Source of the DNA: Berberis thunbergii
Lineage: Eukaryota > Streptophyta > Magnoliopsida > Ranunculales > Berberidaceae
Direction of reading: 5' to 3'
Assembly (NCBI GenBank): GCA_003290165.1
Contig: QNQO01007575.1
Location: forward strand, 248,001 to 312,000
Length of the DNA: 64,000 nt
The translations under genes and the position numbers were made by a program. Shown here in pieces: positions 9,033 through 59,840 of this stretch (positions are counted from its first letter, which is position 1; the number at the start of each line of letters is the position of its first letter). The notes beneath the pieces were generated by a model that saw only the letters and a list, made by a program, of their open reading frames with translations, did no database searches and was not told the DNA's origin.

Positions 9033-9034
<2 letters not shown>

Positions 9035-9081: not shown

Positions 9082-9083
<2 letters not shown>

Positions 9084-12647: not shown

Positions 12648-13366
12648 GTAACTTGATGTGGCGTATCGGCATAGGGAATATCAGTTTTTTTGAGGAGAAT
12701 TGGAACATGGTGGCTTCTTTTGGGAGACCAGAAGCTTTGGCTGCCCATGACGTATGGCCTACGGTCCAGGAGGTGGTTTCTATAAATTATGAATTGGTTC
12801 CTAGAGAGCTCAGAAATTTGGCACGTGTTCTTTTTGCTGATAGACTCCGTAGTGAACCCAATGGAGAGGACTCGTGTGTGTGGACTCCAAATCCGAACGG
12901 GTTATTTTCTATTCAGTCGGCATATGATTTGCTTCGGACTCATGGAAAGGTTAATTCATTAAGTCGTTTCCTTTGGCACGAACATTTGCCTTCTAGAATA
13001 TCAGTTTTTGTTTGGAAACTACTCCGTAGAGGAGTGCCAGTGGACGGTGAATTATACAGATGTGGAATAAGTATGGCCTTTAGATGCCAATGTTGTAAGG
13101 CGCCAAAACAAGAATCTTTGACTCACCTTTTCCTAGACGGCGAAATGGCGTTGCAGGTGTGGAATCATTTTGACAGGAGTTTTGACATTCATGTTCGGCG
13201 ACCAGCAGAATCTCTACGGTTCTGGCAATTTGGTTCAGAAGAGTTAAACGCACTTCGCAAACAGGTGTGTTATTTCTTTTCACTCCAATGTTCATTTTTT
13301 GGGAACTATGAAAAATGCGATGCAAATGTGTGTATGGAAGTGCTACCCCAAATCCAGTTTTTGTGA
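12623..13366 (+). pseudogene. LINE-A ORF2 part 2: zinc-binding RT-associated domain
   Basis: Continues ORF2 in a shifted frame overlapping the end of part 1. It contains the zf-RVT type region: 'SAYDLLRTHG', 'LWHEHLPSRISVFVWKLL', then 'CQCC' and a downstream 'THLFL' block with the conserved spacing seen in LINEs B and C. A second frameshift near 13250-13366 ends the frame before RNase H. Confidence 0.88.
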
Positions 13367-18497: not shown

Positions 18498-18599
18498 GCG
18501 GAGATTTGGTGGAGGTTTTGGAAGATGGAAGGCGATTAATTAAGTAGCAGCTCGTATTAAAGCATATTCCTAAAAAAGAAGAAGAACAGAGGCATGATT

Positions 18600-19520
18600 T
18601 AACATTGATAAGCCGGATTCAACGATGTGGCAATGACGTCGTTCGGCAAGGCCATTTTGAGCTGAGGTATGAGGACAAGAAAAGCGATGAAATATTCATT
18701 GACTATCCAAATATGAAGTGAATTTTCGATATTCACCGCCATTGTCGGATTGAAAAGTTTTGATTTTGTGCCCAAGGAGATTTTCAATTTTATTTTTGAA
18801 CACAATGAAAGTGGGTAAGGCATCAGATTTTTTTGCTAATGGAAAAATCCAGGTGAAATGACTAAAAACATCCATTAACAATAAATAAAAACGAAATCCA
18901 TTGCGAGAAATAACAGGTGCAGGGCCCCATAAATCATAGATAATTAAACTCAAAGGTTTTGTATAGGAACTGGAACTAGATGGAAATGGCAGTTTCCTAC
19001 TTTGCTGACATGGCATGCATGACAAAAAGTAATTGTTTTGTTGGAGATAGGAAGATTATTGACATCCACAATGCGTTTCACTGTGCGAAGCATTGGGTGG
19101 CCTAAACGTTGATGCCACAAAGGCAACGACTCTGAAATAAAAGCAGAATGAGAACTAACATTTGGCATATACCGTGCATGATCAAAGCAATAAAGTCCTC
19201 CTCTATTCCAGCCTTGTAGAAGAACATTCTGTGTGCGGCGATCCTTCACATGAAAAAATTGCGGGTGAAATTCAAAGAAAACATCATTATCTTTACAGAA
19301 TTGGGACACTGAAAGGAGGTTTGTAGATATTTTAGGCACATGATACAGGTTATTTAAATGAAATTTGCGAAGAGCTGTAGAGAAAGAGGCATTACCAACA
19401 TGAGCTATGGGTAAATTGTTACCATTGCCGACTCGAATCTGATCTGGACCAGCATAATCTGTTTGAATATGTAAGTTATTCAAATCAGAAGTAAGGTGAT
19501 TAGTTGCACCACTGTCGGGA
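18600..19520 (-). pseudogene. Copia protease remnant and integrase
   Basis: Around 19500-19520 the minus strand reads a PDSGATN-type aspartic protease site, with a TGA in place of the usual preceding Trp and out of frame with gag. Next come the pre-integrase zinc region ('HQRLGH', then 'CHACHVSK') at 18950-19483 and the integrase core in the frame 18599-19025, with 'DLWGPAPV', 'LLMDVFSHFTW' and 'QSDNGGEY' (catalytic Asp residues in the D..D..E pattern). Frame changes near 18950-19025 and 18600-18700 break the polyprotein. Confidence 0.87.
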
Positions 19521-20490
19521 TATCAGTTGCCATCAGTGAATGCACGGGGGCTGCCATATATGCCACAGTAGGAGAACGAACAGGTGGAGCTTGAAAGTTC
19601 TTGTCATAGCGGTGCCAACAATCTATGGCAGCATGATTTTTCTTACCGCATATTTGACAAGGTCCTGAGACAGGTGCAGCAGGTTGAGAGCGATTCAGGG
19701 ACCGAGTAGAGCCACGAGTGTTGTTGTGACTGTTGGGCTGATGAGCCCGGGCACGAGATGTTTTGTGTTGATTTGACCGAGAGAAAGTAGCTACATGAGA
19801 CATTGGATTTTGTTGCAGAAGGGACTGTTGAGTTTCTATTCGCATGTCAAACGCAAGTAGATGGGCATAAAAATCCTCCATATGAATCTCAGTAACTGTA
19901 GTGGTGAGTGTAGTGACAATTGCATCATATGTTGAATCGAGACCATGGAGGATTATTTGCTGTAAGTCAGATTCATGCATTGGATGTCCAGCGGCAGCAA
20001 GGCCATCAGAGAGTTGTTTGGCATGCAAGAAATATTGGGACATGGGTTTAGAACCTTTTCGGATGGTTTGAAGTTCACGTCGAATTTGCATTATTCGAGC
20101 GCGAGATTTGGAAGCAAATTGCTTCTCAAGGGCTGTCCACACAGCACGGGAGGAATCAAGTCCAACAACCTGTGCGAGCACGCTCTCGGAGAGCGAGGAA
20201 AGGAGCCAGCCAAGTAGTATTTGGTCCTGCTTCTGCCATGCAAGAAAGTCAGGATTAATGGAGGTATCGGATGGGGATAAAATACGAGGAGGACAAACAA
20301 GAGCCCATCAACGTATCCCTCGAGTCCATATCCCTTCAATAGGGGTCTGAATTGGGTGAGCCAAATGAGGTAGTTTGAGTCATCAAGTTTGACAGAGATT
20401 AAGTGATGAATATGAGTGGTTTGTAAGGAATGAGAAGTGATGGTGGAGGAAGCAGGTGATGAGTTAGAAGAAGTTTCTGTGCTGGTCATT
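19480..20490 (-). pseudogene. Copia gag with zinc knuckle (frameshifted)
   Basis: The start is probably the ATG near 20489 ('MTSTETSSNS'); upstream codons are LTR. The first frame (to about 20290) holds the 'VKLDDSNYLIW' segment typical of copia gag, then a frameshift leads to the frame ending at 19480. That frame has a UBN2-type gag body ('AVWTALEKQFASKSRARIM') and a CCHC zinc knuckle ('CQICGKKNHAAIDC'). Gag forms the particle and binds element RNA. The frame runs into the protease region with another shift. Confidence 0.88.
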
Positions 20491-20565
20491 GTGGAGAGAA
20501 AAGGACGGGAGTTGCTTGGTTTTGTTTTTGATGAGAAACTTGGTAGAATCAAAGGCTTGATACCA

Positions 20566-20864
20566 TGTAAAGTTTTGGTAATTGATCTCACACCATAATC
20601 GGTGTTGAGTGTTGTTATTTATAACTTAACTATTAGTTACAGATATGTTAGTTACAGATATGTGGAGGTGTTACAAATATGTGGGGATATGATTTGGTTG
20701 TTACAAATATGTAGGGATGTGATATAGTTGTTACACCATATATGGGGAGATATGATTTGGTTGTTACAACATAAGCTGTTGCTATTTGACTCAGTATCTA
20801 AGACTCCTCATTGAGCTGGTCTTGTTGAGAGTTTGATTTGGAGCCAATTGGACTTGGTCTAACA
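20566..20864 (-). repeat. Copia 5' LTR (right copy)
   Basis: 299 bp. Longer than its partner by a duplication of the TTAGTTACAGATATG segment near 20629-20660. Directly inside the element, read on the minus strand, follows TGGTATCAAGCC (20554-20565), which resembles the primer binding site complementary to plant initiator tRNA-Met (canonical start TGGTATCAGAGC). Confidence 0.93.
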
Positions 20865-24515: not shown

Positions 24516-25142
24516 TCATTTAAAAGCCGGAAGTCGAAGATATGTCGTCTTATTCTTGTCAAGAATAATTAGGGACTTTATTCTTTTAGGAAGCGATCCC
24601 CACGAATAAGTACGAGAACTATGCTCCTTTTGTGCTAAAGTAGCCAAGGCGTCAGCCACTGAGTTGGTCTCTCTGAACACATGGATGCAATGCCACCCTG
24701 AATCCTTTATCATCGCCCGTATCTCCCTCCACCAATTACTTAGGAACCAAGGTATTTTTGTTTGTTGGAAAAACCATTGTTTAACCACCATGGAATCCGT
24801 TTGAATGACACATGGTCGGACACCCTGGGCAACACAAAATCTCAAGCCTTCAAGCAAAGCCCTCGTTTCCGCCGAGTTATTTGTTCCTTCTCCGAAACAA
24901 CATTGCCTAGCCGCCACAAAGTGACCCTCTTCATTTCTAATAACAAAACCTCCAGCAATAGTCTTCTCCCTGCAAGATCCATCCACATTGAGCACATACC
25001 ATCCCATAGGAGGAAAAGTCCAATACACCACCCTGGGCGGAGTCAGTGTTACTTTGGTTTCCTGGATACCCAATCTATTGAGCAAAGCCCCATTATTGTC
25101 CTTTGATTTAAGGTTAAAAATTTTGCAACACATTTGATCCAA
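24516..25142 (-). pseudogene. LINE-B ORF2 part 3: RNase H with all catalytic residues
   Basis: 208 codons ending at a natural stop. The RNase H four-acid set is visible: 'LNVDGSC' (Asp), 'SAETRALLEGL' (Glu), 'IQTDSMVV' (Asp) and 'TNSVADALA' (Asp). The C-terminal 'PKRIKSLIILDKNKTTYL' tail matches LINEs A and C ('PRRLAGLIVLD'). It is separated from part 2 only by one frameshift, so the domain itself looks intact. Confidence 0.92.
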
Positions 25143-26875
25143 TGATACACTTTAATGATTACATAGCTGAACGAGCACTCCTTCCCATCATAAAGTTTTC
25201 TGTTTCGCTGAATCCAAAGCTCCCATAAAACAAAAAGAGGAGTGAGATGAATGAGGGTACCTGATAAGGTAGATTTGTTCGCCTTCCTGAACCACGCCTT
25301 TAACATGGTATAGACTTCAACCGGCCTATGAACGTGAATGTCAAAAATCAGGTCGAAATGTCTCCACACTCTGCAAGCTAATTCACCCTCCAAGAAAATA
25401 TGTTTTATAGTTTCCTCCTCAGAATGAACACAACATCCGCATTTAGAGGCTAACTGAAAACCAATTCTTCTAATTTCACCATCTATGGGAATAGCCCTTT
25501 TAATAATTTTCCATGTGAATACGGAAATTTTAGAAGGCAAAAGTGGGTGCCATATCCAATTCCAGAAATCATCAAGTGTCCCTCTACTACCTAGGATTTT
25601 ACACACAGAGCTGATAGAGAATATACCATCATTAGTGGGCATCCAAATTCTGGTGTCTCGATCGCCATCATCACCTTGAACTATTGTCTTATAAGCCTCT
25701 TGAGCACGTATTTTCATCCCCGGATTTAGCATTCTGAAGTTATCCCTGCTCATTAGCCTTAAGGAGGGCCAAATATCATTATTCTCCACGTCTCCATTCC
25801 TTATAAATATTTCATCCTTAGCCCACTGTTCTTCAAAGAAACTGACGCTACCTCTAATAATCATCCAGGTGGAATTTGCCACTATGAAATTTTTATGCAT
25901 CAACAACTCTTTCATGAAAGGTGAGGCCCCAGCTGTAAGCTCCTGCTTTTGGATTGGTACCCTTGGCTTAAAATATTTTTTCTTTAAGAAATTTGCCCAT
26001 AAAGAGTTGGAATATATCAGATTCCAAAGGGATTTAACTCGAAAAGCGGTAATAGTGTCGTCCAGACTTCGAACATTTAAGCCACCTTCTTCCTTAGTAA
26101 TACTGATTTTTTCCCATGCAATCCATTTCCGTTTATGTCTCCCTTCATGATCTCCCCAAAAGAAATCTGCAATCAATTTCTGAATAGAATGCAAAACCTT
26201 CACAGGAACCACTGTAGCTGCTATAGTATAAATCGGCATAGACATTAGGACATGTCGGATCAAGGTCAATCTTCCCCCAGGCGACAGCAATCGTGATTTC
26301 CATCCTTGAATTCTATTGTGGATCTTAGTAACCAAATCATCATAATAGGAAATTCTGCATCTACCTTGATAAATGGGAACTCCAAGGTATGTGAACGGGG
26401 ACTGTTTATAAGAAAAGCTTGTCCATAATCTGATAATGATAAGTTTTTCGGCACTCACTTTTTCATCAATCATGAAAGAACTTTTTGCCGTATTAATTTT
26501 CTCTCCTGATGCCCGACAGTATCTATCAATAAACTTCATACATCCCGCAATGGATTTTTTCCGACCATTCAAGAAAACCAGTAAGTCATCAGCATATAAG
26601 AGGTGAGTAATCGGGGAGGTCGTCCTTAGAGCATGATAAAAACCAATTTCCCCTCTACGAAAAGCTCGAGAGAGTCCTCTACTTAGTACTTCCGCAGCAA
26701 TGACAAAGAGCAAGGGGGAGAGAGGATCGCCTTGTCTAAGACCCCTGGAAGATCTGAAATACCCGTCATACTTGCCCTGCATCAACACCGAAAATCCACA
26801 TTGAGTTACACAATTTGAAATCAGGTGACAGATTCTGTTGTTAAAACCAAATTTACGAAGGACCGCCAGTAGATA
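25049..26875 (-). pseudogene. LINE-B ORF2 part 2: RT and zinc-binding domain
   Basis: Directly continues part 1 in the same frame after the TGA. RT motifs: 'SRGLRQGDPLSPLLFV', then 'LLYADDLLVFLNG' (YADD near 26587-26598). It then reads 'YLGVPIYQGR', the thumb, 'ADFFWGDHEGRHKRKW', and the zf-RVT region ('WIWHPLLPSKISVFTWK', 'CGCCVHSEEETIKHIFL'). Near 25120-25142 a frameshift passes the sequence to the RNase H frame. Confidence 0.93.
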
Positions 26876-26878
26876 TCC

Positions 26879-28660
26879 TCATTCAATTCTGTCATACGCC
26901 TTTTCCATATCCAGCTTGAAAATTACATTATTGCCAATCACTTTTTTGCCAATCTCCCTCATTAATTCTTGTGCCAAGCCAATGTTCTCTGAGATAAGTC
27001 TCCCTTGTACAAAAGCCCCCTGCTCTAAAGAAATAATATTTGGGAGTATCTTCCCCAACCTCAAACAAAGGATCTTACTAAAAATTTTGTAAACCACGTT
27101 GCACAGACTGATAGGTCTAAAATCAGAATAAGATACGAGCTCTTCAATTTTAGGAATGAGAGCTAAAAAATTAGAAGAGAAGCTACCTGGCATCGCTTGG
27201 CAATCAAAAAATTCCGTCGCGGCTTTCCAAATATCCAGACCAATAATGTCCCAGCATTTGTGAAAGAAACCAACTGTAAAACCGTCCGGGCTCGGTGCAC
27301 TATCATGAGGAATGCTAAGAGCTGCTTGTCGGACTTCCTCTAAAGTCGGAGACTTCATGATAGATTCACAGTCCGCTTCCCTTATCAAAAGCGGAATGCA
27401 TTTCATGAGTTCTGGATCCTCGTGATATCCTCCTGCTGATAGCAAAGCTTCAAAAAAATTATTCGCTTCTAAAATAATATCTCTCGGATCCGTGATTAAA
27501 TCCCCTGCCCTGTTATGGATTTTTGATATCATTCGCCTTTTTTGCTTGGATTTGACGGAAGCAAAGAAAAATTTAGTGCATGCATCTCCTTCTTTGAACT
27601 CCTTTTCTCCTGATTGTTGTTGCCAATAAATTTCTTCTCTTACCAGAGCCAGTTTTAGTTCAGCCTGACATCTATTCAGATTAACCATATCATTTGTATC
27701 CCAACCCTGCATAAGACTGAATTCTAATCTGGCAATCTCATCCTCCAAACCTCGAATAGTGCTGAAAATGTTGCCAAAAGTTTCTTTATTCCATATTTTC
27801 AGAACTCCTCTGAGACGCTTAAGTTTCATGGCCACAATAAACATATTCCCAGAACCACCTACCGGAGAGTTCCAGTTTCTATCCACAAATCCCAAAAAAT
27901 CTTCATGCGTTAACCACATATTTTGGAATCTGAAAGGGGACATACCTGCCCTCTGTGTCAGAGGCAAAGACATAAGCAGTGGAGCGTGATCCGAGCACAC
28001 TCGAAGGAGATGATCAATTCGAGAATGCTGCATAAGAATAGACCAGTCTGCATTACCCAAAAAACGATCCAGTCGAGCCCAGGTTCTGTCATCTCCTCTT
28101 TGGTTGTTACACCAAGTAAATTTTGGTCCTTCAAACCCACAATCGGAAAGTCCGCAGTTCGAGATACATCTAAAAAAGTCTGATGTAGCCAGCTGATTGT
28201 AAGGACGACCGCCTAATTTTTCACCGCCGTCAACAATGACATTAAAGTCGCCACCAATGATCCATGCTTCATCCATACTCATTGCAATGTGCTCCATGGC
28301 CTCCCATAATGTTCGTCTCTCTTGAACTGAACATTTTGCATATACAAAGGAAGTGAAGAAAACAATATTGGAAAAAAGGATAGTAATCTTACAATGAATC
28401 AATTGATCGGTGCGGAGTAATATGTCCACTTGTAAGTGATTATCCCAGAAAAGCCATAATTTGCCGCCAAAATCCTCATTCGTTGCAAAGCAAGGCAGAC
28501 TCACTTTGCCTACAATCTCCATGTGCCTTGACGCTTGGATCATCGGCTCCGCAATGGCAAGCATCTTAACATTATTATCTTTAACCAGCTTTTTTAATCT
28601 GCTACGGGTCGCCCGGTTGCCAACTCCCCGTGCATTCCAGAACATTATATTATCTATCAT
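26879..28660 (-). pseudogene. LINE-B ORF2 part 1: endonuclease and RT N-terminus
   Basis: I place the start at the ATG at 28658-28660 ('MIDNIMFWNARG'). An upstream in-frame GTG is less likely. The endonuclease keeps its key motifs: 'FWNARGVGN', 'AIAEPM' (catalytic Glu), 'IGGDFN', and 'SDHAPLL'. The RT then begins with 'SAPSPDGFTVGFF', 'NFLALIPK', 'FRPISLCNVVYKIFSK' and 'KLDMEKAYDRIE'. The frame is closed by a TGA at 26876-26878 exactly where relatives have Trp ('DRLEW'), so a single G-to-A change (TGG to TGA) ended it. Confidence 0.93.
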
Positions 28661-28761
28661 TAGGGACACCTGGATTAGTCATATTGCGTGTTACTCGCCG
28701 GCTCCCTCCCGCGGGTCCATTCTTTGAGCTCTTCTTTTTACCTTTCGTCCTCGCTTCATCA
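28650..28761 (-). pseudogene. LINE-B ORF1 C-terminal stub
   Basis: The minus strand reads in frame from the truncation point to a TAA at 28650-28652. It gives about 36 residues rich in Lys, Ser and Arg ('KGKKKSSKNGPAGG'), as expected for the basic end of a plant LINE ORF1. Its stop overlaps the start of ORF2 (ATG at 28658-28660) in another frame. Confidence 0.6.
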
Positions 28762-36639: not shown

Positions 36640-38134
36640 AGGGTGTTACAATTTTTATGGCTACAATCCACGATTTTCTCCAAGGGGGAGTCATTAACTT
36701 TTAAAGGCTATAATCAACAATTTTCTCACTTTTAGGCTCAATTTTAAAGCCAACGATACACGATTTTTCACATCAACTTTTGAGGTTCAAATTCAAAGGT
36801 TATACTCAACAATTTTCTCAGTTTGATACCCAATTTGGAAGACAACAATACACAATTTTCTTGATTTTTATCAACTTTTGAGGCTCAAATTCAAAGGCTA
36901 TAGACAATGATTTTCTCCAAAATTTCCATCAATTTAGGAGGCTCGATCTCAAAGCTATACTCATGATTTTCTTGGTGTTTCCTTCATTTTTAGAGGCTCA
37001 ATGTTGAAGGCTATTGTCCATGATAATCTCTAATTTTTTAATCAAATTTTGAGGCACAATATTGAAGGTTGTATTCCACCATTTTCTCGGATTTTTTCCC
37101 AGAACCTTTTGAGGCTCAAAATCAAAGGCTATCATTAGAAATTTTCTCACTTTGAGGCTCAATTTTGAAGACAACAATATACAATTTTTTCAAGTTTTTT
37201 CATCAGCTTTTGAGGCTCAAATTCAAAGGCTATAGTCAAAGATTTTCTTCGAAGTTTTCATTAATTTTGAAGGCTCGATCTCAGTGACTATAGTCCATGA
37301 TTTTATCAGTTTTTGTTTCATTTTTAAAGGATTAATCTTAAAGGTTATATTCCATGATTATCATGGATTTTCCATCAACTTTTAAGGAAAAATATTGAAC
37401 GCTATAATCGACGATTTTCACGAAAATTTCCATTAACGTTTTAGACTAGAGTTCAAAGGCTATAATCCACAACTTTCTCACTTTTGAGGCCCAAATTTGA
37501 AGGCTACAAATTTTCTCGGTTTTTTCATCAACTTTTGAGAGTCAATTTTGGATGATATAATACTCATTTGTCTTTATTATTAACTTTTGACGCTCAATTT
37601 CAAATGTTGTCGACAATTTTATCAATTTTTTCATCAACCTTTAAGGCTCAATTTTGAAGGCTATGATTTTCTAACTTTTGAGGTTTAATTTTGAAGGCTA
37701 CAATCCATGATTTTTTTTTCAACAATATTTGCTACTCAAATTCAGAGGCTATTATAGTCCACGATTTTTCTCAAAATTTTCATTCAATTTTGGAAGCTTC
37801 ATTTCAAAGGCTATAATCCATGATTTTCTTGCTTTTCTTCAACAACTTTGAGATTCAACTTCTGATGATATAGTGCTCAATTTTCTCATTTTTTTCATGA
37901 ACTTTTGAGGCTCATTTTCAAAGGCTATAGTCCACTATTTTCTCAGTTTTATCAAATTTTACGGCTCAAATTCAAAGGATACAATTTTTCACTTTCGATG
38001 ATCAATTTTGAAGGATACAATCGATGATATTTTCGAGTTTTTTTAATCAACTTTTAGGGCTCAAATTCAATGGTTATAGTCCACGATTTTCTCAAATTAT
38101 TTTTCATTTCTAAAGGATAAATTTCAAAGCCTAT
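36640..38134. repeat. Satellite array, block 4
   Basis: The same monomer family. The ordered variants CTCGATCTCAAAG, CTTCATTTTTAGAGG and GGCACAATATTGAAGG appear here at 36930-37090 and again, diverged, at 37250-37440. Ends in CCTAT, the target site of the Tat-like retrotransposon. No gene. Confidence 0.88.
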
Positions 38135-41689: not shown

Positions 41690-42740
41690 CTATGGGAAAG
41701 TTGGTTTGTTTGACCAACTTTTTCTTCGTTGGTTTGAATACTAGTCGACCCAAAGTTTTTTTTTAACTAAGTTGACTTGTTTGTCCAACTTTTACTTCAT
41801 TGGTTCAACGTACTAGTTGACCCAAGGTTTTTGAATTAAGTTGACTCATTCGTCCAACTCTTACTTCGTTGGTTTGACGTGCTAGTCAACCTGAAGTTGT
41901 TTTTAATTAAGTTGACTTGTTTGTCTAACTTTTACTTCACTGGTTCGACGTACTAGTCGACCCGAAGCTTTTTTAATTAAGTTGACTCGTTCTTCCATAT
42001 CTTACTTCGTTGGTTTGATGTGCTAGTCTTCCGAAGTTGTTCTTTAACTAGTTTGACTTGTTTGTCCAACTTTCACTTAGTTGGTTCGACATACTAGTCA
42101 ACCCAAAGTTGCTTTTTAATTAAGTTGACTTGTTTGTCTAACTTTCACTTCATTGGTTCGACATACTAGTCGATCCTAAGCTATTTGAATTAGGTTGACT
42201 CGTTCGTTCAACTCCTACTTCGTTGGTTTGATGTGCTAGTCAACCTGAAGTTTTTTTTAACTAAGTTGACTTGTTTGTCCAACTTTCACTTCGTTGGTTC
42301 GATGCACTAGTCAACCCGAAATTGCTTCTTAATTAAGTTGACTTGTTTGTCCAATTTTCCCTTCGTTGGTTCGACGTACTAGTCAACTCGAAGCTTTTTG
42401 AATTAAGTTGACTCGTTCATCCAACCCTTACTTCAGGTTGTTGGTTTGACGTGCTAGTCAACCCGAAGTTTCTTTTTAACTAAGTTGATTTGTTTGTCCA
42501 ACTTTCACTTTGTTGGTTCAACGTATTAGTCGACCCGAAGCTTTTTGAATTAAGTTGACATGTTCGTCCAACTCTTACTTTGTTGGTTTGACGTGCTAGT
42601 CAATCGAAGTTGTTTTTTCATTAAGTAGACTTGTTTGTCCAACTTTCACTTTGTTGATTTGACGTACTAGTCGACCCGAAGCTCTTGAATTAAGTTGACT
42701 CGTTCGTCCAACTCTTACTTCGTGGTTGATCAGACCAGAA
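41690..42740. repeat. 70-bp tandem repeat inside the Tat-like element
   Basis: About 14-15 units of 68-78 bp. Two forms alternate: one with GTTGACTTGTTTGTCCAACT and TTCGACGTACTAGTCGACCC, the other with GTTGACTCGTTCGTCCAACT and TTTGACGTGCTAGTCAACC. The alternation is interrupted twice by two consecutive units of the first type (near 42052-42124 and 42264-42336). Starts of the GTTGACT word fall near 41772, 41842, 41910, 41980, 42052, 42124, 42194, 42264, 42336, 42406, 42484, 42556, 42624 and 42694. Confidence 0.93.
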
Positions 42741-48721: not shown

Positions 48722-49133
48722 GCTATAATCTACAATTTTCTAGTCTTTTCCAACAACTTTTGAAACTTAATTTTATATGTTTGATGTATATCAAGTTTGT
48801 TGTCTTCATTTATTTTTGTTTATGCTTCGATCTGCGAAGATTATTATATAACAATAATAATCTTTGTATGTGTTATTAATTATAAAATTATTTGTATTTC
48901 AATTTGTATTAAGTCTTCTATTTGATTTGTTCTTAGCAACGACTTGAAAAAACTCTTGTCTAAAAATGGTATCAGATTTACAAGGCTTGTGTCCATGATT
49001 TTTTAGTAACTTTTGTAGTTTAACATCAAAGGCTATAATCTACGATTTTTTCTCAATTTTTTTCATTGATTGTTTAGGATAAATTTCAATTTCTCAATGT
49101 TTTTTCACTGACACTTGTGGCTTAACTCCAAAC
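48722..49133. repeat. Satellite array, block 5
   Basis: Fragments of the same satellite (GCTATAATCTACAATTTTCTAG at the left, TTTCAAAGGCTATAATCTACG near 49030) around a stretch of about 200 bp that does not match it (48780-48990). Ends in ...CTCCAAA, which joins to AAAGGTTATAATAATCC at 56963 to rebuild a monomer. Confidence 0.8.
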
Positions 49134-49149
49134 ACTACACCAAAAGGCC

Positions 49150-49560
49150 CATTTAGCTACACGAAGGTGGCCACGGTCTTAAAGCGTTGGTTTATTTGCC
49201 ATGGTCGAAAACCGTGGCTATAGTGGCCAACGGCCTAAAACCGTGGCTAAAAAAGGCTTGGCCACGGTTCTAAACCGTTGGTGTGTTTGCCACGGCTAAT
49301 AACCGTGGCTATAGTGCCCAATGGCCTAAAATCGTTGCTAAACTGCACACGTATTGCACGTGGAAGTGTGGAGAAGTGGCCACGGTTCTGAACCGTTGGT
49401 TTAATTGCTACGGCTAAAAACCGTGGTCGTGGCTATAACGGCCAACGGTTTAAAACCGTGGCTAAAAACAATACGCCAAAAAGTTGCAACGGTTTATACC
49501 CGCGGTTATAGCTGCGCACGGTTTAAAACGTGGCTATAGCTGCCCACGGTTTAAAACCGT
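49150..49560. repeat. Left subterminal repeats of the 7.8-kb CACTA
   Basis: About ten copies of a palindromic word near CCACGGTTTAAAACCGTGG, with forms such as GGCCACGGTTCTAAACCG, CCGTGGCTATAGTG and AACCGTTGGT. They alternate in orientation at about 30-50 bp. In the En/Spm model such subterminal motifs bind the TnpA protein. The binding protein here is unknown. Confidence 0.85.
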
Positions 49561-49722
49561 AGCTATAGAAAATAGTTTCCCGCTTTTGGCAAAAATAATT
49601 TCGCGCTTTGGCGAAAAATTTTGGTGAAAAATAGACATGGGAGATGAGGGGCTTTGGCGAAAGAAATTGGGGGAAAAAACACAGTGGAGAGGAGAGCAGA
49701 TTTGGCGAAAAAAATTGGGGAA

Positions 49723-49738
49723 AAACTAGGGTTTTTGC
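49723..49738 (+). promoter_or_regulatory. Telo-box-like motif upstream of the captured nucleolin start
   Basis: AAAACTAGGGTTTT lies about 65 bp before the first ATG of the nucleolin fragment. AGGGTTT/AAACCCT (telo-box) motifs are common upstream of plant ribosomal-protein and nucleolar-protein genes. It suggests that some 5' flank of the host gene was captured. Function here is untested. Confidence 0.4.
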
Positions 49739-49783
49739 CTTTGCTCTCCCTTTCTCTATTTTTGTTTCGATCGTCTTCAAAAT

Positions 49784-49896
49784 CTGATTCAATCGATCGA
49801 TGTTCATGTTCTTGGGCAAATCTAGCAAGAAGTCTCAGGTAACACTTCTTCCCCCTTCTCTTGTATTTCTGATTCAATCGATCGATGTTCATGTTC
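49784..49896. repeat. Direct repeat around the nucleolin start codon and in its first intron
   Basis: TCTGATTCAATCGATCGATG followed by TTCATGTTCT occurs at 49784-49813, spanning the presumed start, and again at 49867-49896 in the first intron. Period 83 bp. The copies are essentially identical, so the duplication is recent relative to the satellite. Confidence 0.85.
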
Positions 49897-50693
49897 TCTG
49901 TTTCTCGATCTTGTGTAGGTCGTTGCAGCCACCCCTAATTATGCAAAATCTTCAAAGAAAGGTTTGGTTTGCTTTTTATCTTTCGATTCTTTTCGTTGCT
50001 TGGATTAGAGTCTTATTCGTGTTCGGTTCGGTCCGGACTGATTAATTAGTGTTGGTGTTTTGTGGTTGTTGTTCGTTTTAATAGGCAACAAGAGAGAGGC
50101 TGATGTACCAATCGAGGAAATAGTGGCTATCAAGAAGTAGAAGTTGGACGAGAAGGTCGCCATCAAGAAGAAGAAGGAAGAGACCAGTAGTTCTGAGGAT
50201 GAGGATTCTTCTTCTGATGATGTAAGTGTTTTTTGTTACAACATTGTTAATGGCGGCTTGTTTTATTAGTTTGCAGATTTTTTGAAAAAAATTAAATAAT
50301 ACCTTTTTCTATATGGGGTTTTGTTAATTCGGTGTAGGAGCCTGTTGTTCCTTCAAATAAAAAACCTGTTTTAGTTTCTAAGAATGCTTCTGTTAAAGGA
50401 AAGCCTGAAACCAGCAGTTCTGGTTCTTCAGATTCTGATTATGATGTGAGTGCTTACTCATTCTTGATCTAACAATCATAGAAAAAAAGTTTTTTTTTTC
50501 ATTATTTAGGATGTTTTAGTGTAGATTTACAAATGAAAATTAGAGTGTTTTCTATGGGAGTTGTTTCTTGTGTGTATTGTAGGAGCCTATTGTTAAGAAA
50601 CAACAACCAGTTTCTAAGAAACCTGTAAAGGGAAAGGCGGATACTAGCAGTTTTGATTCTTCGGATTCGAACAGTTACGATGAATCTGACGAC
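49800..50693 (+). pseudogene. Captured nucleolin 5' fragment (five exons)
   Basis: Exons read as 49800-49838, 49919-49961, 50085-50221, 50338-50445 and 50583-50693, all with GT donors and AG acceptors and compatible phases. The product begins 'MFMFLGKSSKKSQ', continues 'SSKKGNKREADVPIEE', then acidic Ser/Asp/Glu runs ('TSSSEDEDSSSDD') alternating with basic Pro/Lys segments beginning 'EPVV' or 'EPIV'. This is the N-terminal layout of plant nucleolin, a nucleolar RNA-binding protein for rRNA processing. The RRM and GAR parts are absent. An in-frame TAG at 50138-50140 stands where Gln is expected ('IKK*KLDEK'). The capture ends near the last donor (GTGAGTG at 50694). Confidence 0.82.
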
Positions 50694-50925
50694 GTGAGTG
50701 CTTGGCTATACTACATTAAATCCTTTGTAGATCAAGATACATGACTAGTTCAAGTAAATATGTATCCATATATTTCTAAGATATATGGTTATATACTACA
50801 CTATTAATGTAGGATATTGTGAATTGAGAACAACAATTGACCAAATTTTTGTCATATAGCTTCTAAGTTCAAATTCCATTTGCTGATATTTATGATCCAA
50901 ACTTGGCAATTTTTGTGACTTTCAG

Positions 50926-53900
50926 GGAAGACTGTAATCACCAGTGATCATGCACTCAAATTGGAGACAGTTCCTGATTGAATAGCTATTGTAGGCAGTG
51001 GTTACATTGGCCTTGAGTTCAGTGATATCTATACAGCACTTGGAAGTGAGGTAAGGATACTTATGATTTTGTACATATCATTAAGTTTACACAAGTTTGA
51101 AGATTTATTTTTCCTATGCATTTTTTAACATTACATGCAAGTCGGATGATCCTCGTCGTAGTAAACCTTTGTGTCACTTAATACAGTTCAATGCAGTAAC
51201 ATTTTCGCGACCTTTGTGAAACTAGCTAACCATGGGTAGTGGCAGGTCACTTTTGTTGAAGCACTAGATCAGCTCATGCCTGGATTTGATCCTGAGATTG
51301 CAAAGCTTGCCCAAAGAGTACTTATAAATCCAAGGAAAATTGATTACTATACTGGTGTATTTGCAAGCAAGGTATAACATGTTTAACACTACTCAATGCA
51401 TATTTTGTTATAAGACCAATGTATCAGAATTTCAATGGTATTACTTTTGCAGATCACTCCGGCAAAGGATGGAAAACCCGTCCAAATTGAGCTTATTGAT
51501 GCAAAGACAAAGGAACCGAAGGATACTTTGGAGGTAATTACCAACTGTTGCAGTTAGATACCTGGGTAAAGACGTAACGTTGTTGGTGTCTTGAGATGAA
51601 TTTCTTGGCCTGATTATTGTTTGTGAAACAACAATTTTCTAAATAAAGTAAAGGAACGTGAGTTACTTCATGGAATAACCAATAACATCCTACTTAGCAA
51701 GGAGACTGAACATACTGATGAATTTGATTCATTGGATACACCTACATTTTCTCTCATTCATCAATAAGAATGATCTAGGGTTTGAGAGTATGAATTGGTT
51801 TTTTTTTTCTTTGGTCCCTTGTATTGGTGTGTGTAAAAGCAAACACATACATGTTTTATTGCTATAGTTACTGTAATCATAACAAGGTGTTGATGCAGGT
51901 TGATGCTGCCCTTATTGCAACGGGAAGGGCCCCATTCACACAAGGTCTTGGTTTGGAGAATGTGAGTGTGGAAGTATAATAAGATTTTATGCTAAAAGTG
52001 TTAAATTTAATTTTTTTTTTTTAATAAGCCGGCTTGACTCATTTGCAGATTAATGTGGAAACACAACGTGGTTTTATTTCTGTTGATGAGCGAATGCAAG
52101 TAATTGTAAAAGTGGAAAGCTGGTTAGTGTCACATTCCCTTGACGAACATTATTTTCATTCATGCATTTTCGTGTATTATTGACACATACCTTCAATATT
52201 TAGGTGCCTTATGTGTACTGCATTGGCGATGCCAATGGAAAAATGATGCTTGCTCATGCAGCAAGTGCACAAGGAATTTCTGGTAACCAGCTTGCTTCTG
52301 CTACCATATATCAAAGAACATTGAACAATGATATTTTTTTTCCTAAATGGATTGCTTTCATTTGACACCTGGCATTATGTTTCCAATTTAGTTGTGGAGC
52401 AAGTTACTGGAAAGGATCATGTTTTAAACCACTTGAGCATCCCAGCAGCCTGCTTCACCCATCCTGAGATCAGTATGGTAGGATATACCGAGGTAATCTT
52501 TTAACTTTTGAACTGTATCCTGTTACTAGGCGTTGGCTGTACATTTTTATTGTGTTGCATATGCTATTCATATGTGCACGGTGCTCTACAACAATATAAG
52601 TTAACTGAAAAAGGGGTGTTCACGAGTTTGGATCAAATTCTTTATGAAAGCCGGCGTCATGTAATTCAATTGTTGGATAGAAAGCTAGCATGCATTGAGT
52701 ACTTACAAATACTTCTACTTATCAGTATTTCCATTCCTGAAAAAAAATATTAAAATTATAATTTTTGGGGTATCAAGATAACAGGTTGAAGAAGATACTT
52801 AAATCCCCAACCTCAGCTGGCATAAAATTTCTTTTATCATCCAATCTCAGCTGGCATAAAATTTTACAGCCACAAGCGAGGGAAAAGGCAGAGAAGGAGG
52901 GATTTGAAGTAAGTGTTGCCAAAACAAGTTTCAAGGCTAACACAAAGGCCCTAGCAGAAAATGAAGGGGAGGGGATTGCTAAGGTGAGGCTATTTTATTT
53001 CTCTGTCTTGCAATTTTGTTTCTTTGTCTTTGCTTCTAACACTTCACACACTATCCACAAAGCACTATCCACAAAGTACTTTATGGAAATACTCTTTTTA
53101 ATATTGTATCCAACAGTCAACATTACTTAAAACTCTTGCGACTCTCATAAGACGATCTCTTGGGCCTTTAGAAAAATCTTTAAAGGCTCGCTGAGATAGT
53201 TTCCTGTAGTGAAATTTATATAGTGAGATTTAGTTCCAGGAGATAGATAATAATCCAGTAACACTAGCCATTTTGTAGACCAAAAGTTCTATCTTTGCCC
53301 ATTTTCTTTCTATAATGAATTACATTTAGAGCTTACCTACTAGCAAAGAACATCTTTCTTCCTCCTACTAGCCAAGAAGAAAGACATTCCTCTTCCTTCC
53401 TTTTTCAATGTGATTACTTCAGCATAAGACAAAAGCTAGTATCACTTGGATCACAATCTATCTTGCAGCTGTCATTCTGTTTCTAATGTTTTACTTTCTT
53501 GGTATCTCGATTGCATTGGTCATCTGGTCCAATCATCCCCATCATCATCATAGTAAATGCAATCTTAAATATTGGTATCAGCAATGGGATTGCTATTCAC
53601 CATTTAACCCTATCTCTAGCTCAGTCAGTATATGCTTCTTCACATTTTCCTCAGTCCTAAACCCTTACCATTCAGCAATCAATAGAATATAGAAATGACT
53701 GACTGACAATTTGACGTTCTAAAAAATGCAACTGGCATAAGATTGAACTAATGTGTGTCCTTTTTTAGTTTAGAACTTGTTCCTTGTTTAATCCATCTAT
53801 TACCCTTCCTGGATTTATTGTATTCTACCACATACATGCCTAAATTTCTTGCACCTTTCTTTATATATGCGAATATGTCTCTGAATTCGCTCTGTTATAT

Positions 53901-54320
53901 TTCTTGCAGTTGATATATAGACCTGATACTGGAGAAATTCTTGGTGTTCATATCTTCGGGATGCATGCTGCAGATCTTATTCATGAAGCATCTAATGCTA
54001 TTGCCTTGGGTACACGTATCCGGGTACTCTTTGTTACCTAAATTTGAGCAAAGACCATCAATTCCGAAGCAAATTAGTAAAAGAAACATCACTTGAAAAC
54101 TTTTTGCAGAAAAGTCTATATCTGGATTCCTTGATCATCTGAACTTTATGACACTTATTTGTTTGTATGTACTTTGAAAGTAATAGTATTTCATCTTTCT
54201 TGAGATTAGATGAAAATTGTTCTAATTGTTTTTCGCAATGCTCGTCTCAAATGTTATTATTTATTTCATTATGTGTTTGCGTTATCTGAAGTACTTGATG
54301 AACTCTTCAAATCAGCTAAG
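50926..54320 (+). pseudogene. Captured plastidial dihydrolipoamide dehydrogenase, 3' half (ten exon pieces)
   Basis: Exons: 50926-51050, 51246-51371, 51453-51533, 51899-51961, 52049-52122, 52204-52282, 52392-52492, 52870-52983, 53910-54023 and a remnant 54282-54320. The product matches the plant plastid E3 subunit (LPD1/LPD2 type): '[20 protein letters not shown]' (NAD-binding GxGxxG), '[19 protein letters not shown]' (FAD-contacting GD), '[17 protein letters not shown]' and the dimerisation domain '[18 protein letters not shown]'. Native E3 reoxidises lipoamide in the plastid pyruvate dehydrogenase complex. Missing: the N-terminal FAD domain with the redox disulfide, and the HAHPT catalytic segment just before 54282. 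Damage: a TGA at 50979-50981 for a Trp, and a 1-base loss near 52107 in exon 5. Confidence 0.93.
52780..52869. repeat. Tandem duplication before LPD exon 8
   Basis: CTCAGCTGGCATAAAATTT occurs twice, about 35 bp apart (near 52811 and 52846), in the intron end preceding the acceptor at 52868-52869. The copy nearer the exon provides the AG used. Confidence 0.75.
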
Positions 54321-56567
54321 GTATATCTCTGATTTCTCCTCTACATCTCATTGAACCCTACTGGCCCTATTAAATGGGCTGGATTAGGAACAATGTTTAG
54401 AAAACGACCTTATAATGGAAAGAGTCACTTCCAAAGTTCCAGCGAAGATCTTTCACATGAGTATCTAAATAACAATGGTCTTTTTGCTATTTTGCGGCCA
54501 CTAAATGTTAAATAACGCCAATTATAACCATAAAAGCTTAGCTTTATTTTTGTGTAATTATTTGCTATGTATATGTATACTTGCATGAATTAGTGTTTTT
54601 CTTTTCCTTTATTTTTTTAAATCCAAAATTTCAATTTTTTTCCTGTCAGATTACAAGTTGGGTTAACTCTTATTTCATTTATGACTGCCATTATGCCTAA
54701 ATAATGGCCATGGTCGTAGAGCTGTTTCCACCTTATAGCAGCATTTTAAAACGTTGATCTCAAAATTCTTTGTTTTGGCATTGATCCTCAAGTGTTTTGC
54801 ACTTGGCCTGGTATCGGTCCAAACTTGCTCCAGCAAGTAATTCTTTGGTCCTGAACTGTTCCAGTGAGAGTGGTTCAGTGACTGGGAATGGTTTACTGTT
54901 ATCATTATCATTATCATTATCATTATCATATGCAGTTGGCGTATGTATCCATCTGTCATGTTATGAAAGGAACATCTAATACCTTGACAATAATAACAAT
55001 TTAAAAAAAAAAAAAAAGTAGTTATGATTTTATTGCCATTGCACTCTAAGCTTCTCAATGTTAGGCATAATTTATCAAAACATATAGTTTCCATTAGGGA
55101 GTCTCTGGAAGCACCACAACATCTTCATTCCAGAAAAAAGAAACAATTTCTAGCAAAATCCCACATCTAAAGACGAATCTCTCTCCACCATATTTGGTTC
55201 ATAGAAGCTTTTATATTTGGTTCTGTGTTGGATCCTCTTTTCAAAAATGTGGTGTTTTTATGCATTACTGCAATTAACTTTCTGGAGAAAATCATTTTGT
55301 CGTAAAAGTTTGGTGAGCTTTCATCTCGCCCTTCATCCTGCAATAATCGCCTTTATAACTGTAATAATAGTATCTATCCTTAACTGTTAATATATAGTTT
55401 TGTGGTGAATCTCTTTATAGAAATACTTTGGGATCTATGCTTTTGGGCATTTAACTTTTTGGAGACGATCATTTTGTCATAAATTTAGGTGAGCATTCAC
55501 AAACACTTCATCTTGCAATTAAAATTCTGAACTGGCATACAGTCAAAACTTTGATTAGGAAATTCCAATGTGACCAAAATCCTGTAATCAAGGTACTAAT
55601 TTCATTTCACATTATTTCAATTGCTGCTTCTTTCTTGTTGATATTGTAGATATTGTAAGAATCTTTAATGTAACTAAATTTTAATGCAAACTTATCTGCT
55701 CTGTCCAGCAATGATTTGTTATCATCTCATCACCTGTTAGCAACAAAAGAGACCAGCAGTTGTATTTTTACATAGCACACTTAAATGTAAGGAGTGGTGT
55801 GGCCATTGCTTGAGGTGACCGATTCTTTTTGCTTCTTTGGTGTATGTAGTCAAATCATTTGTTTATGTAGCTTTCCCTTTGAATGGCATGAATCATGACA
55901 TGATCTACTGATTTCAAACTTATTTTAGGCCTATGCCTCAAGGGGATACTTAATTCTCTTCATAGTTTTCACTAGATATGGTAACAAAATTTCTTGTTGT
56001 CTGTGGAATAGAATCATATCATACGTTGCATTTTGCAGCAAGCTCACTATTTCCCAGCAGCAAAATTTCACATCAAAATTTCTTGATATGGAGTAACAAA
56101 ATTTCTTGTTAACTGTGGAATAGATATGGAGTGTGTTAGTTTGGTTTGCGACCAGCAGCAAGCTCGCATCAGTGCGTCCCTTGCAGAGCAGCAGTTCGTC
56201 CCTCGCAGCAGCAGCAGTGCGTACCTTGCATCATCAGCAGATCGTCCCTTGCAGCAGCAACATTGCGTCACTCACAGCAGCAGCAGCAGCAGCAGCATTG
56301 TTCCACTTTCTTTGTATTTGAGATAATTAAGTTTGTGTGTGTCATTGTATTTGAGATATTATTTGATAGATTTTGTGACTCAATGTAATACATTATCTTA
56401 TTAATTACATTACTTTGCCTCCATTCATGGAAATGTTTAAGTTTAGCACATTAAAATTTTTATTTTCTAGAAATAAAACTTATAAGTTGTAATAAAAGTC
56501 ATTTGATAGCAAAAATAATTAAAATTAAAAAAAATTATTTTAAAAAAAATTATTTAAAAAAAATATA
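54321..56567. other. Right interior of the 7.8-kb CACTA without recognisable gene
   Basis: Directly after the last LPD exon (donor-like GTATATC at 54321) the sequence is AT-rich and non-coding by eye. It may contain downstream LPD introns or flank, but I find no further LPD exon. A TTATCA microsatellite lies at about 54899-54929, and a twice-used phrase GTAACAAAATTTCTTGTT occurs at 55979 and 56094. No transposase motif. Confidence 0.55.
56148..56306. repeat. CAG-rich minisatellite
   Basis: Units of about 25-30 bp such as GCAGCAGTGCGTACCTTGCA and CGTCCCTTGCAGCAGCA, ending in a (CAG)7-8 run at about 56277-56298. Several open frames on both strands arise from it and are not genes. Confidence 0.8.
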
Positions 56568-56950
56568 TTTGCCGCGGTTTTAAACCATGGCTAACTGTTG
56601 CAACGGCTACAAACCGTGACTACCTTGCCACGGCTTATAACCGTGGCTAGTATTGTCCACGACTTAAAACCGTTGCTACAGCTATTGCAACGGCTTAAAA
56701 CCGTGGCCAAACTTGCAACGGTTTTAAGCTGTGGCTACTCCTGCCCACGGCTTAGAACCGTGGCTAAGATTTTGGCAACGGTTTATAACCGTGGCTAAAT
56801 CATCAACCGTCATCGAGATAAAACCGTTGCTAATATTTTAGCCACGATTTTTAGCCGTTACTAGGGATTTAGCGACGCCTCTACAGCCCACGGTTATAAG
56901 TCGTGCCAATGGGTTACCCCCACGGTTTAAAACCGTTGCTAATGGCCATT
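56568..56950. repeat. Right subterminal repeats of the 7.8-kb CACTA
   Basis: About twelve copies of the same palindromic motif as the left end (GCCGCGGTTTTAAACCATGG, CAACGGTTTATAACCGTGG, CCACGGTTTAAAACCG), closely spaced. Sharing one motif at both ends confirms that 49134 and 56962 are the ends of a single element. Confidence 0.85.
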
Positions 56951-57561
56951 TTTGGTGTAGTGAAAGGTTATAATAATCCATGATTTTTTTTTTCAAATTA
57001 ACTTTTGAAGCTTGATTTGAAAGGTTTTAGTCTAGATTTTCTCGATGTTTTATTAGTTACTCTTGGAGCCCAATTTCAAAGGATGTAATCCACGATTTTA
57101 TCGATTTTTCATCAACATTTGAGGGACAAATGCAAAGGCTACAATCCATGATTTTTGGGTTTTTTCATTTGAGGCTCAATTTCAAAGGCCATACTCCGCG
57201 ATTTTCTCATTTTTATTAACTTTTGAGGCACATTCATAACTTTTGAGGTGCAATTCAAAAGGCTTCATTCCACATTTTTTCAAAAAAATTTGGGCCACTC
57301 CTATGGCTTTCTATTAAAGCTTATAATCCACAATTTTCTCAATTTTTTTCAAAAAAAATTAGAAGCTCAACTTCAAAGGTGAGAATCTACAATTTTTTTG
57401 GATTTTTTCATTAAATTTTTAGGTTATATCAAAGACTATAATCCACAATTTTCTTATTTTGAGCAAATTATTAACCTAAATTGAAAGGCTATAATCCACG
57501 ATTTTCTCAGGTTTTTTATTTTATTTTATTAACTTATGAGGTACAATTTTGTAGCCTATTA

Positions 57562-57563
57562 TA

Positions 57564-57631
<68 letters not shown>

Positions 57632-57633
57632 TT
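57562..57633. repeat. TA dinucleotide microsatellite with T-run
   Basis: GTGTGTGTATATATAT followed by about 22 TA units and then some 20 T, inside a satellite monomer. Confidence 0.95.
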
Positions 57634-58635
57634 TGACAACTCTTGTGGGTTAATTTCACGAGCTATATATAACCCACGACTTTCCCATTTTTCAACTTTC
57701 GTGACTCATTTTGTAATCTAGAGTGCACTTTCTTTGTGTTTTTTATAACTCTTTAAACTCAAGTTTAAAGGCATAATCGATGATTTTCTCAAAAAATAAA
57801 ATAAAAAACTTTGAACCTAAAATTTAAATGTTATAGCCCACACTTTTCTGAATGTTCTAGCTCTTATGGCTTAGTTTTAAAGGCTATAATCTACGATTTT
57901 GCCATTTCATCATTAATTTTTGAAGCTCGATTTACAAAGCTATATTCGAGTTTTATTTGTTTTGTTTATTCAATAACTCTTGGAGCTCAATTTCAAAGGC
58001 CATAAGCCATGATTTTCTCAAAGTTTTATCAACTTTTAGACTCAATTTTAAAGGGTATGATCCATGAATTTTCTCATTTTTATTAACTTTGAGGCATAAT
58101 TTCAAAGACTATAATCCACAAGTTTCTTGATATTTTCATCAACTTTTGATGCACAATTTCGAAGTCTATAGTCCATATATATATTATTTTTTTCTTTTGA
58201 CTCTTGTAGGTTATTCAAAAGCTATAATTCATGATTTTCTCATCAACTTTCAAAAAAAATTTCTTTCAAGTTTTGAGTGTCAATTTGGAAGGATAATTCA
58301 CGATTTTCTAAGTTTTTTTTTTTTTTTTCCAAACTTTTGATACTCAATATTTCTAAGGCTATACAGTTCACATTTTATCAATTTTTGTAACAACTTTTAA
58401 GGCCCAATTTCAAAAGCTATAATTCATGATAATTTTATTTATTTATTTATTTTTCATCAACTTTTGATGCTCATTTTCAAAGACTATCATCTTTGATAGT
58501 TTTTTTCATATAGTTTTGAGGCACCATTTCAACAAGTATAATCCCCAATTTTCTCGGGTTTTTTCACCAACTTTTTAGGCTTAATTTCAAAAGCTATATA
58601 ATCCATAGTTTCACATTACTTATTATTTTTTAGCC

Positions 58636-59005
58636 TCAATTTTAGGAAGGGGAATGTCAGACACTGCATGTGATTAAAAGGATTTAAAAAAAGGAACAGA
58701 AAAAAACTTATTATCAATTTAGTACCTTTGCACATGCAAAATTCAAACATGTGAGGAGCACGTCTCACCCTAAACTTTGCAAATCAGAGTTTTGATGACA
58801 GAAAATGGTGGTGATGGAGGCCAAAGGTGGTCCATTGACATTATGAGGGGTTGGGGGTGGTGGTAGCTGAATCAGGAAGAAAATATGAAAAGGGAAAAAC
58901 TCACGTGCTAGCTTTTAATTTTTTTTGAAAATAGGTACCAAATTGTAAATTTATTGCGGTACTAAACATAAGAGAAAAAAGTTTTTAGGTACTATTATGT
59001 ACTTT
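58636..59005. other. Non-satellite insertion of about 370 bp in block 6
   Basis: The satellite stops at CAATTTTAGGAAGGGGAATG and resumes at TTTTAAAGCTATCATACAC. The insert has near-inverted words at its sides (TTAGTACCTTTGCAC at about 58720; GGTACTAAACATAAG and AGGTACTATTATG at about 58950-58995), which would suit a small non-autonomous element. I could not define exact ends or a TSD. Confidence 0.4.
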
Positions 59006-59840
59006 TCTATTTTAAAGCTATCATACACAAATTTCTCAGTTTTTATCAAAATTCTTAGTGCTAATTTCAAAGGCTGTAATCCATGGTTTTCATCATTTTT
59101 TTTTAATCTACGTTTGAGGTTACTTTCATAGGGTAAAATCCACATTTTTCTTAATTTTTTCAATCGAATTTCGAGCCTCAATTTCAAATAATGTCTTTTA
59201 TTTTTTCAAATTTATCATCTACGTTTTGAGGTTCAAAATTCGTGGCTATAATCCAAGATTTCCTCAAATTTTATTTATTAATTATTGAGGCTTAATTCCA
59301 AATGCTATTTTCTTATCAAAATTTTTAGGCTTAATTTCAAAGGCAATATCCACGACAATCTCAATTATTTTCCTCTAATTTTGAGGTTCAATTTCAAAGC
59401 ATATAAACCACGATTTTCTCAGTTATTTTTATCTACTTATTCAGTTTAATTTCAAAGGCTATAATCTAAACCTTTCCTTGATTTTTTTCATCAATTTTGA
59501 GACTCATTTCAAACTTATAATACATGATTTTCTCGTTTTTTTTTTTTTCAACTTTTGGTGCTCTACTTCAGAAGCTATAATCATTGGCTTTCTAAAATTT
59601 TTAATCAGCTTTTGAGGCTAAATTTCAAAGCTTATATTACGCGACTTTCACTATTTTCTTATTCGAATTTTGAGGCTCAATTTCAAAGAGTATAGTCTTA
59701 GATTTTGTCAGTTTCTTCATCTACTTTTCAGGTTCAATGTCAAAGGCGATAATCCCACAATTTTGTTGGGTTGTTTTTTTCATCAGCTTTTGAGTTTCAA
59801 TTTCAAATTTTGATCCACTATTATCTCATCAACAGCCAAA

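Follow-up and report, generated by a model that had tools for sequence, protein, structure and literature searches.

A gene-capturing CACTA element with nucleolin and lipoamide dehydrogenase fragments in Berberis thunbergii

Introduction

The closest described relatives of the element reported here are CACTA transposons that carry pieces of host genes, and the following outline of them is taken from the available parts of the cited papers. The Tpn1 elements of Ipomoea nil are non-autonomous and gene-capturing; they number 339 copies, nearly all with 3-bp target site duplications (TSDs), and transposase-bearing members are rare (PMC5105172). Tgm-Express1 of soybean is a 5.7-kb CACTA element that holds fragments of five unrelated host genes, introns included (PMC1947982). 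The Pack-CACTA or Pack-TYPE elements of Arabidopsis, maize and rice form clusters with nested cargo gains (PMC8903248), and in wheat 3B, 140 capture events by DTC_famc5 and other CACTA elements were reported, together with 17 potential exon-shuffled genes (PMC4290129). Here we describe an element of this kind from Berberis thunbergii. It lies in a window of 64,000 bp (contig QNQO01007575.1, positions 248,001 to 312,000; the positions given below count from the first base of the window), spans 49133-56962 (7,830 bp) and contains pieces of a nucleolin gene and of a plastid lipoamide dehydrogenase (LPD) gene. We are highly confident that it is a non-autonomous, gene-capturing CACTA element, i.e., a Pack-CACTA element of a Tpn1/Tgm-Express1-like lineage, that arose by serial capture and amplification of gene fragments.

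How CACTA elements acquire genomic DNA is not settled. This one genome holds donor-like genes, a nucleolin element free of LPD, two-gene and three-gene chimeras and an apparent element-element recombinant. Because the cargo is ~91-98% identical to the genes, and because donors and intermediates stand side by side, the order of events and the exact joints become readable and models of capture can be tested. The family also carries a warning for annotation, since LPD and nucleolin exons occur in dozens of transposon copies and could be miscalled as genes.

The B. thunbergii host assembly (2.24 Gb) was searched for copies of the element, for donors and for transposase domains. Part of the candidates was scored in these searches, and so the copy counts are lower bounds; near-identical pairs of places are also frequent, and independent insertions may therefore be about half of the counts. 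L numbers denote individual genomic stretches that were read, and C numbers denote contigs of the assembly.

The Element and Its Insertion Site

The ends of the element and the insertion site are made up of the following features.

49130..49132, no strand: left TSD, AAA (sequence and empty-site test)
49133..49145, plus strand: 5' terminal inverted repeat (TIR), CACTACACCAAAA (sequence)
49167..49575, no strand: 5' subterminal repeats, ACCGTGGCTA and inverted forms
56566..56949, no strand: 3' subterminal repeats
56950..56962, minus strand: 3' TIR (sequence)
56963..56965, no strand: right TSD, AAA (sequence and empty-site test)

The first-pass annotation, made from the letters of the window alone, had called a complete CACTA element here, and this holds with the start moved from 49134 to 49133, where the TIR begins. 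The left copy of CACTACACCAAAA and the reverse complement of the right end agree without a mismatch and the next bases differ, which gives perfect TIRs of 13 bp. Three marks of the CACTA superfamily are present. The TIRs begin with CACTA; the same AAA flanks the element on both sides as a 3-bp TSD, and three other complete elements of the family likewise have 3-bp TSDs (L022, AAA; L043, TTG; L047, TTC); and short direct and inverted subterminal repeats occur at both ends. Repeats of the ACCGTGGCTA type take up ~410 bp on the left and ~380 bp on the right. The motif RCCGTKGCTA, which shuffles would lead one to expect 0.12 times, matches 10 times in the 64-kb window, always within the two ends of the element.

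The element sits in satellite DNA, and its removal had been said to restore the satellite monomer exactly. When the flanks were joined at 17 different offsets, dropping exactly three bases scored 62 against the satellite and the other 16 offsets scored 58 or less. The result supports the claim in substance; however, the surrounding satellite is degenerate, and therefore "restores continuity" is a safer wording than "exact" restoration. A six-frame search of the element, at E 0.01 or better, found no PF02992 transposase, so it can be assigned to the superfamily only as a non-autonomous member.

The Captured Genes and Their Donors

Between the ends lie two gene segments, one directly after the other.

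49722..50712, plus strand: captured nucleolin segment, part of the 5' untranslated region and exons 1-5 with introns
49800-49838, 49919-49961, 50085-50221, 50338-50445, 50583-50693, plus strand: nucleolin exons 1-5
49783..49812, plus strand: 30-bp copy of 49868-49897 (intron-1 sequence), replacing the nucleolin ATG region
50713..55594, plus strand: captured LPD segment, from the intron 5' of exon "a" to past the gene end (match to the C2462 gene)
50926-51050, 51246-51371, 51453-51533, 51899-51961, 52049-52122, plus strand: LPD exon pieces 1-5
52204-52282, 52392-52492, 52870-52983, 53910-54023, 54282-54320, plus strand: LPD exon pieces 6-10

What was first proposed about the make-up of this cargo, i.e., intron-containing genomic fragments of nucleolin and plastid LPD in the same orientation, about 230 bp apart and with at least fifteen exon pieces, is borne out. 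The last nucleolin exon and the first LPD exon are separated by 232 bp, and the exon pieces are five from nucleolin (49800-50693) and ten from LPD (50926-54320); the ends of the fifth and tenth LPD pieces were read from the sequence. Donor-like genes for both segments exist elsewhere in the genome (LPD, L021; nucleolin, L049), as expected for a Pack-CACTA element, and the window does not hold the sole LPD gene.

The five nucleolin exon pieces encode the basic/acidic N-terminus of the protein. This piece has no Pfam domain of its own, and its single match in the protein database is an RRM protein of Papaver nudicaule (E 5.8e-10). At the DNA level 49722-50712 is 91% identical, introns included, to the host nucleolin gene on C210, of which the RRM exons were read in L044 and the 5' end in L049. 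Nucleolin genes with exons of both RRMs are found at C210/C6733 and C908/C9345. The homology begins near 49722, ~70 bp above the ATG of the gene and below a TATA-like motif that presumably acts in its promoter. Capture of the nucleolin promoter was considered and rejected, because the homology starts in the 5' untranslated region below this motif, and the promoter thus seems not to have been taken. The ATG is lost in the window and kept in L043 and L050; the 30-bp copy that stands in its place is probably templated filler.

One nucleolin RRM1 exon (query 23-62) also occurs at dozens of places (L029-L042 were fetched), mostly with no second RRM listed. One of these places, L036, falls within the element L043.

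The LPD pieces run from the NAD-binding domain to near the C-terminus (Pfam PF07992/PF02852). The LPD piece is 93% identical to the chloroplast LPD of Bidens, and 120 listed LPD proteins are 88-93% identical to it. The donor-like gene, LPD-A (L021, on C2462), matches the window at 97.5% over 50713-52812, 94.0% over 52827-55389 and 96.7% over 55386-55594. All 14 of the exons seen in L021 are free of stops, and the gene has exons upstream of the junction. The four query pieces for LPD exons upstream of the captured part occur together at C2462/C2308 and C1006/C9592, and in L011 and L017 the upstream exons adjoin the part that is shared with the element. The captured exons are damaged: the first piece has a TGA, the fifth has lost 1 bp and the tenth (54282-54320) is truncated on its 5' side relative to the donor.

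Dozens of places carry further copies of the upstream LPD exons (150 of 167 candidates were scored), for example C44:533753-534169 and C1388:227489-227905; one such place, L052, was read. These copies may stem from the same gene through another capture that was then amplified.

The Family and Its Stepwise Assembly

The search for further copies showed that the family is multi-copy. All 40 of the LPD block candidates that were scored, from a total of 367, are matches. Two of them are LPD genes (C2462 and C2308), two are on C57 and C5426, and 36, the window included, are in the element family or were taken to be so; the LPD block is thus present at 35 or more places besides the window. Eighteen of the 36 were fetched, and nucleolin lies directly upstream in 16 of these (L001-L003, L006-L010, L012-L016 and L018-L020) and an SNF8-like piece in the other two (L004 and L005). 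From the nucleolin side, 40 of 583 candidates for exons 1-5 were scored; 21 are followed on their strand by an LPD place after 230-235 bp, which is also the window's spacing, and two (C210 and C6733) are the nucleolin gene. The 5' end of the element gave 40 matches from 40 scored candidates (of 5,359), all starting within the first four bases of the TIR and 38 at the first base. When the lists were compared by eye, a CACTA 5' end stood shortly upstream of 20 of the 36 LPD places among the matches listed. The cargo has therefore been multiplied along with the element ends, which is the second mark of Pack-CACTA elements.

The near-identical pairs of places are probably haplotypes, a reading that was checked for one pair: in C360 (L022) the element sits at the position that it has in the window, with flanks of 97.6% and 93.3% identity and the same AAA. 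A tree of 20 LPD sequences is star-like, and all eight strongly supported forks join two sequences. With a rate of 7e-9 substitutions per site and year, the spread of the family would be, roughly, of the order of 1-2 million years old.

Several relatives differ from the window element in their cargo, and they are best compared with reference to the inner parts of the element.

49576..49721, plus strand: inner 5' element sequence with ~47-bp repeats, common to the nucleolin-only relative L043
55595..56141, plus strand: inner 3' sequence, common to L047 and L048 from 55739 on (no source was found for 55595-55738)
56142..56297, plus strand: GCAGCA-rich repeat block, common to L043, where it has two copies

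The complete element L043 (C5908) matches 49133-50712 of the window at 87% over its left 1.54 kb. It extends further into nucleolin, to the first RRM, and is 94-97% identical to the gene in L044 in three main pieces; there is no LPD match in it. To the right of nucleolin, at 4372-7621 of L043, are WD40, DOG1 and SOSEKI domains, and the 3' GCAGCA block is doubled, with an inner copy (5669-5819) before the SOSEKI piece and another before the real 3' end. An alignment of the window, the donor LPD, L043 and nucleolin resolves the joint in the window: nucleolin intron 5 ends at 50712 and LPD begins at 50713, so the joint is blunt.

Other relatives carry other genes. L046 (C97) and L053 (C44) have nucleolin and LPD followed by MATE. 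With 40 of 151 MATE candidates scored, MATE occurs within 4 kb downstream of 23 of the 36 LPD places and at ~12 kb in two more, and eleven have none among the matches listed. Three places on C328, outside the list of LPD places, match the MATE cargo at 93-97% and are taken as putative donor-like genes. In L004 and L005 (C10668 and C1657; L048 is a longer stretch that ends short of the 5' end of its element) a piece with an EAP30 domain, which we take to be SNF8/VPS22, replaces nucleolin except for the last 18 bp of the intron. This SNF8-like piece is itself repeated (42 matches from 40 scored of 471 candidates), and L048 therefore appears to have arisen by recombination between two elements. 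A small deletion at 52812/52827 is common to the window, C360, C181 and the SNF8-like pair; the fetched MATE-bearing copies keep the sequence at 52812/52827 and lack about 53058-53338. Finally, L054 (C13:1358200-1368100) is a nucleolin-LPD element with a different CACTA element nested in LPD exon a; the nested element has the ends CACTACTACAAAT and the TSD ACA and carries a fragment of a sugar-transporter domain.

Taken together, the combinations nucleolin without LPD, nucleolin plus LPD, LPD plus MATE, SNF8-like plus LPD, and nucleolin plus WD40, DOG1 and SOSEKI suggest stepwise assembly. Many copies exist both of the SNF8-like piece and of a second piece to which it is joined, and further cargo-bearing subfamilies may exist.

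Origin of the Element and Alternative Explanations

CACTA transposases recognize the ends of their elements, as far as the available parts of two reports describe it (PMC5105172, PMC8978399). We propose that the TIRs and subterminal repeats of the window element are the cis parts that would be bound and cut by a CACTA transposase from autonomous elements elsewhere. An ancestor would have taken up a genomic segment of nucleolin, and in a descendant the 3' part of this segment would have been replaced by ~5 kb of the LPD gene, which would have left the blunt junction in nucleolin intron 5. The chimera would then have multiplied, with some branches adding the MATE piece and others swapping nucleolin for the SNF8-like piece. 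Capture most likely occurred via repair of breaks or gaps with template switching, together with fusion of nearby related elements. Template switching during repair is favored by the blunt joint and by the filler copied over 30 bp, and fusion of neighbors agrees with the doubling of the 3' block in L043 and with the element nested in L054; both processes may have been active, at different steps.

Several observations weigh against this account. PF02992 domains are abundant in the genome (150 of 7,809 candidates were scored, all above the cut-off and many without stops); however, none was tied to the TIR of the window element. The trans source is thus hypothetical, and the evidence for mobility consists of past insertions. 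The nucleolin/LPD joint has no remnant of inner element ends, which fusion of neighbors would predict. A 3' part of LPD on C57 (L055, C57:1176400-1183400; 97.1% identical to L021) may not belong to the family: the 7 kb read there has neither an upstream LPD exon nor a CACTA end of the window's family, and C5426, with the same match pattern, is likely its partner. Lastly, full neutrality of the cargo is brought into question by 11 copies (one per apparent pair) compared with one donor haplotype over six LPD exons (exon e omitted). The changes comprise 32 that are synonymous, 62 that are nonsynonymous and 5 stops, a per-site nonsynonymous to synonymous ratio of 0.62, which is below 1; the ratio also takes in the donor branch, which is under constraint, and changes that copies have in common, and by itself it would not decide the matter.

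It is possible, although we lean against it, that LPD was captured by fusion of neighbors and not by template switching. Two related elements flanking LPD would have been mobilized together and their inner ends lost, as in the model published for Pack-CACTA and Pack-TYPE elements (PMC8903248 and PMC13317346, available parts). This route is supported by L043, with its additional 3' block in the interior, and by L054, where a second CACTA element lies inside the LPD piece. However, no subterminal motif was found inside the window element, L043 or L047, the joint is blunt, and the copying of 30 bp from close by is a sign of repair synthesis.

The orientation of the cargo allows a further reading. 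All seven different genes found (nucleolin, LPD, MATE, SNF8-like, WD40, DOG1-domain and SOSEKI) are in the sense orientation, and scans for antisense cargo in the window element and in the cargo-bearing parts of L043, L046 and L048 gave no match. This one CACTA lineage might be a stepwise assembler whose cargo is always sense to the 5' end, with its capture, or its retention, linked to transcription that runs through the element instead of following from random repair. We regard this idea as improbable.

We give much less credence still to the idea that the element was selected because it yields a chimeric nucleolin-LPD product, either an RNA or a protein, with an action on the donor genes. 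The amplification of the chimera and the sense orientation of all its cargo would agree with such a role, and the cargo of the soybean CACTA element is transcribed, according to the available part of that report (PMC1947982). The sequences argue otherwise. The TAG at 50138 in nucleolin exon 3, where L043 reads CAG, is present in all 18 nucleolin-LPD places read (19 sequences, since L010 and L046 cover one place). The end of nucleolin exon 5 is in phase 0, but LPD exon a would have to be entered in phase 1, and so reading across the joint meets a stop after three codons. If exon a is skipped, the frame is regained and holds as far as the 1-bp loss in exon e. An in-frame fusion, with or without skipping of exon a, is therefore rejected. 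The suggestion of the first-pass annotation that a nucleolar-protein promoter had been joined to a plastid enzyme domain fails as well, with the promoter outside the element, the ATG lost and no in-frame joint.

Constraint on the LPD cargo was also considered and rejected. Among the 11 copies, exon divergence over 50713-52812 is 2.36% vs. 1.81% for introns, so exons are not more conserved than introns, and in five of the 11 a stop interrupts the six LPD exons read. The LPD of the window and that of the donor differ at 13 of 917 exon sites vs. 93 of 3,688 other sites, as one would expect if constraint acted on the donor alone. Neither an open frame nor constraint, as a functional chimeric gene would have, was found. 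The best reading of these sequences is that the captured pieces travel as passengers, with no constraint on the protein that could be detected, and no chimeric protein would be expected.

The weakest alternative is that a chimeric host gene or a segmental duplication gave rise to the nucleolin-LPD block and that CACTA ends were inserted into it later; it would account for the exon/intron order, sense orientation and nearly all splice sites that both pieces retain, but it is largely refuted, and we see next to no chance for it, because the same block with the same CACTA 5' end is present at many places, copies complete to both ends have 3-bp TSDs, with L047 and the window at different sites, and the flanking satellite is continuous once the whole unit is removed.

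Neighboring Sequences in the Window

The degenerate satellite, with a unit of ~54-58 bp and interrupted by transposons, occurs in the window at 7700-10134, 14796-15727, 36703-37509 and 57087-59464. A 71-bp tandem array of 14.5 copies at 41698-42727 is unlike the ~57-bp satellite found elsewhere in the window. Open reading frames of a LINE (long interspersed nuclear element) and of copia-like elements, named by reading, are at 10185-13366, 24516-28669 and 16719-20591; the top-ranked database match of the LINE protein, from Paulownia, is only 43% identical.

Comparison with Known Systems

A literature search with the TIR string of the element found no paper, and no CACTA element carrying nucleolin is apparent in the titles and first lines of abstracts. 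The nucleolin-LPD pair had been thought to be undescribed; this view is too narrow, since the pair is one of several cargo combinations in a multi-copy family.

The following comparisons draw on the available parts of the reports. The window family resembles Tpn1 in its conserved ends, in an interior replaced by host genic DNA and in its 3-bp TSDs. Tpn1 carries other genes, in a comparison made by description and not by end sequences, and the series nucleolin, LPD and then MATE or SNF8-like is, as far as seen, the window family's own. Tgm-Express1 is a single insertion in F3H with transcripts shown, whereas the window family is multi-copy and known from DNA. Clusters with nested cargo gains are shared with Pack-CACTA and Pack-TYPE elements; however, the two worked examples there carry pieces of ~58-280 bp and the window family carries kilobase-sized, multi-exon genomic segments (PMC8903248). 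As in wheat 3B, a single gene recurs in several copies, but 19 captured genes were reported to be transcribed and under selection in wheat, and the chimera in the window is broken (PMC4290129).

In conclusion, capture of several unrelated intron-bearing genes by CACTA elements is already documented, and so the window element belongs to a known kind. What is less usual is how large the segments are, that chimeras of two and three genes have been amplified and stand beside donor-like genes and intermediates, and that the cargo is in the sense orientation in all seven cases observed.

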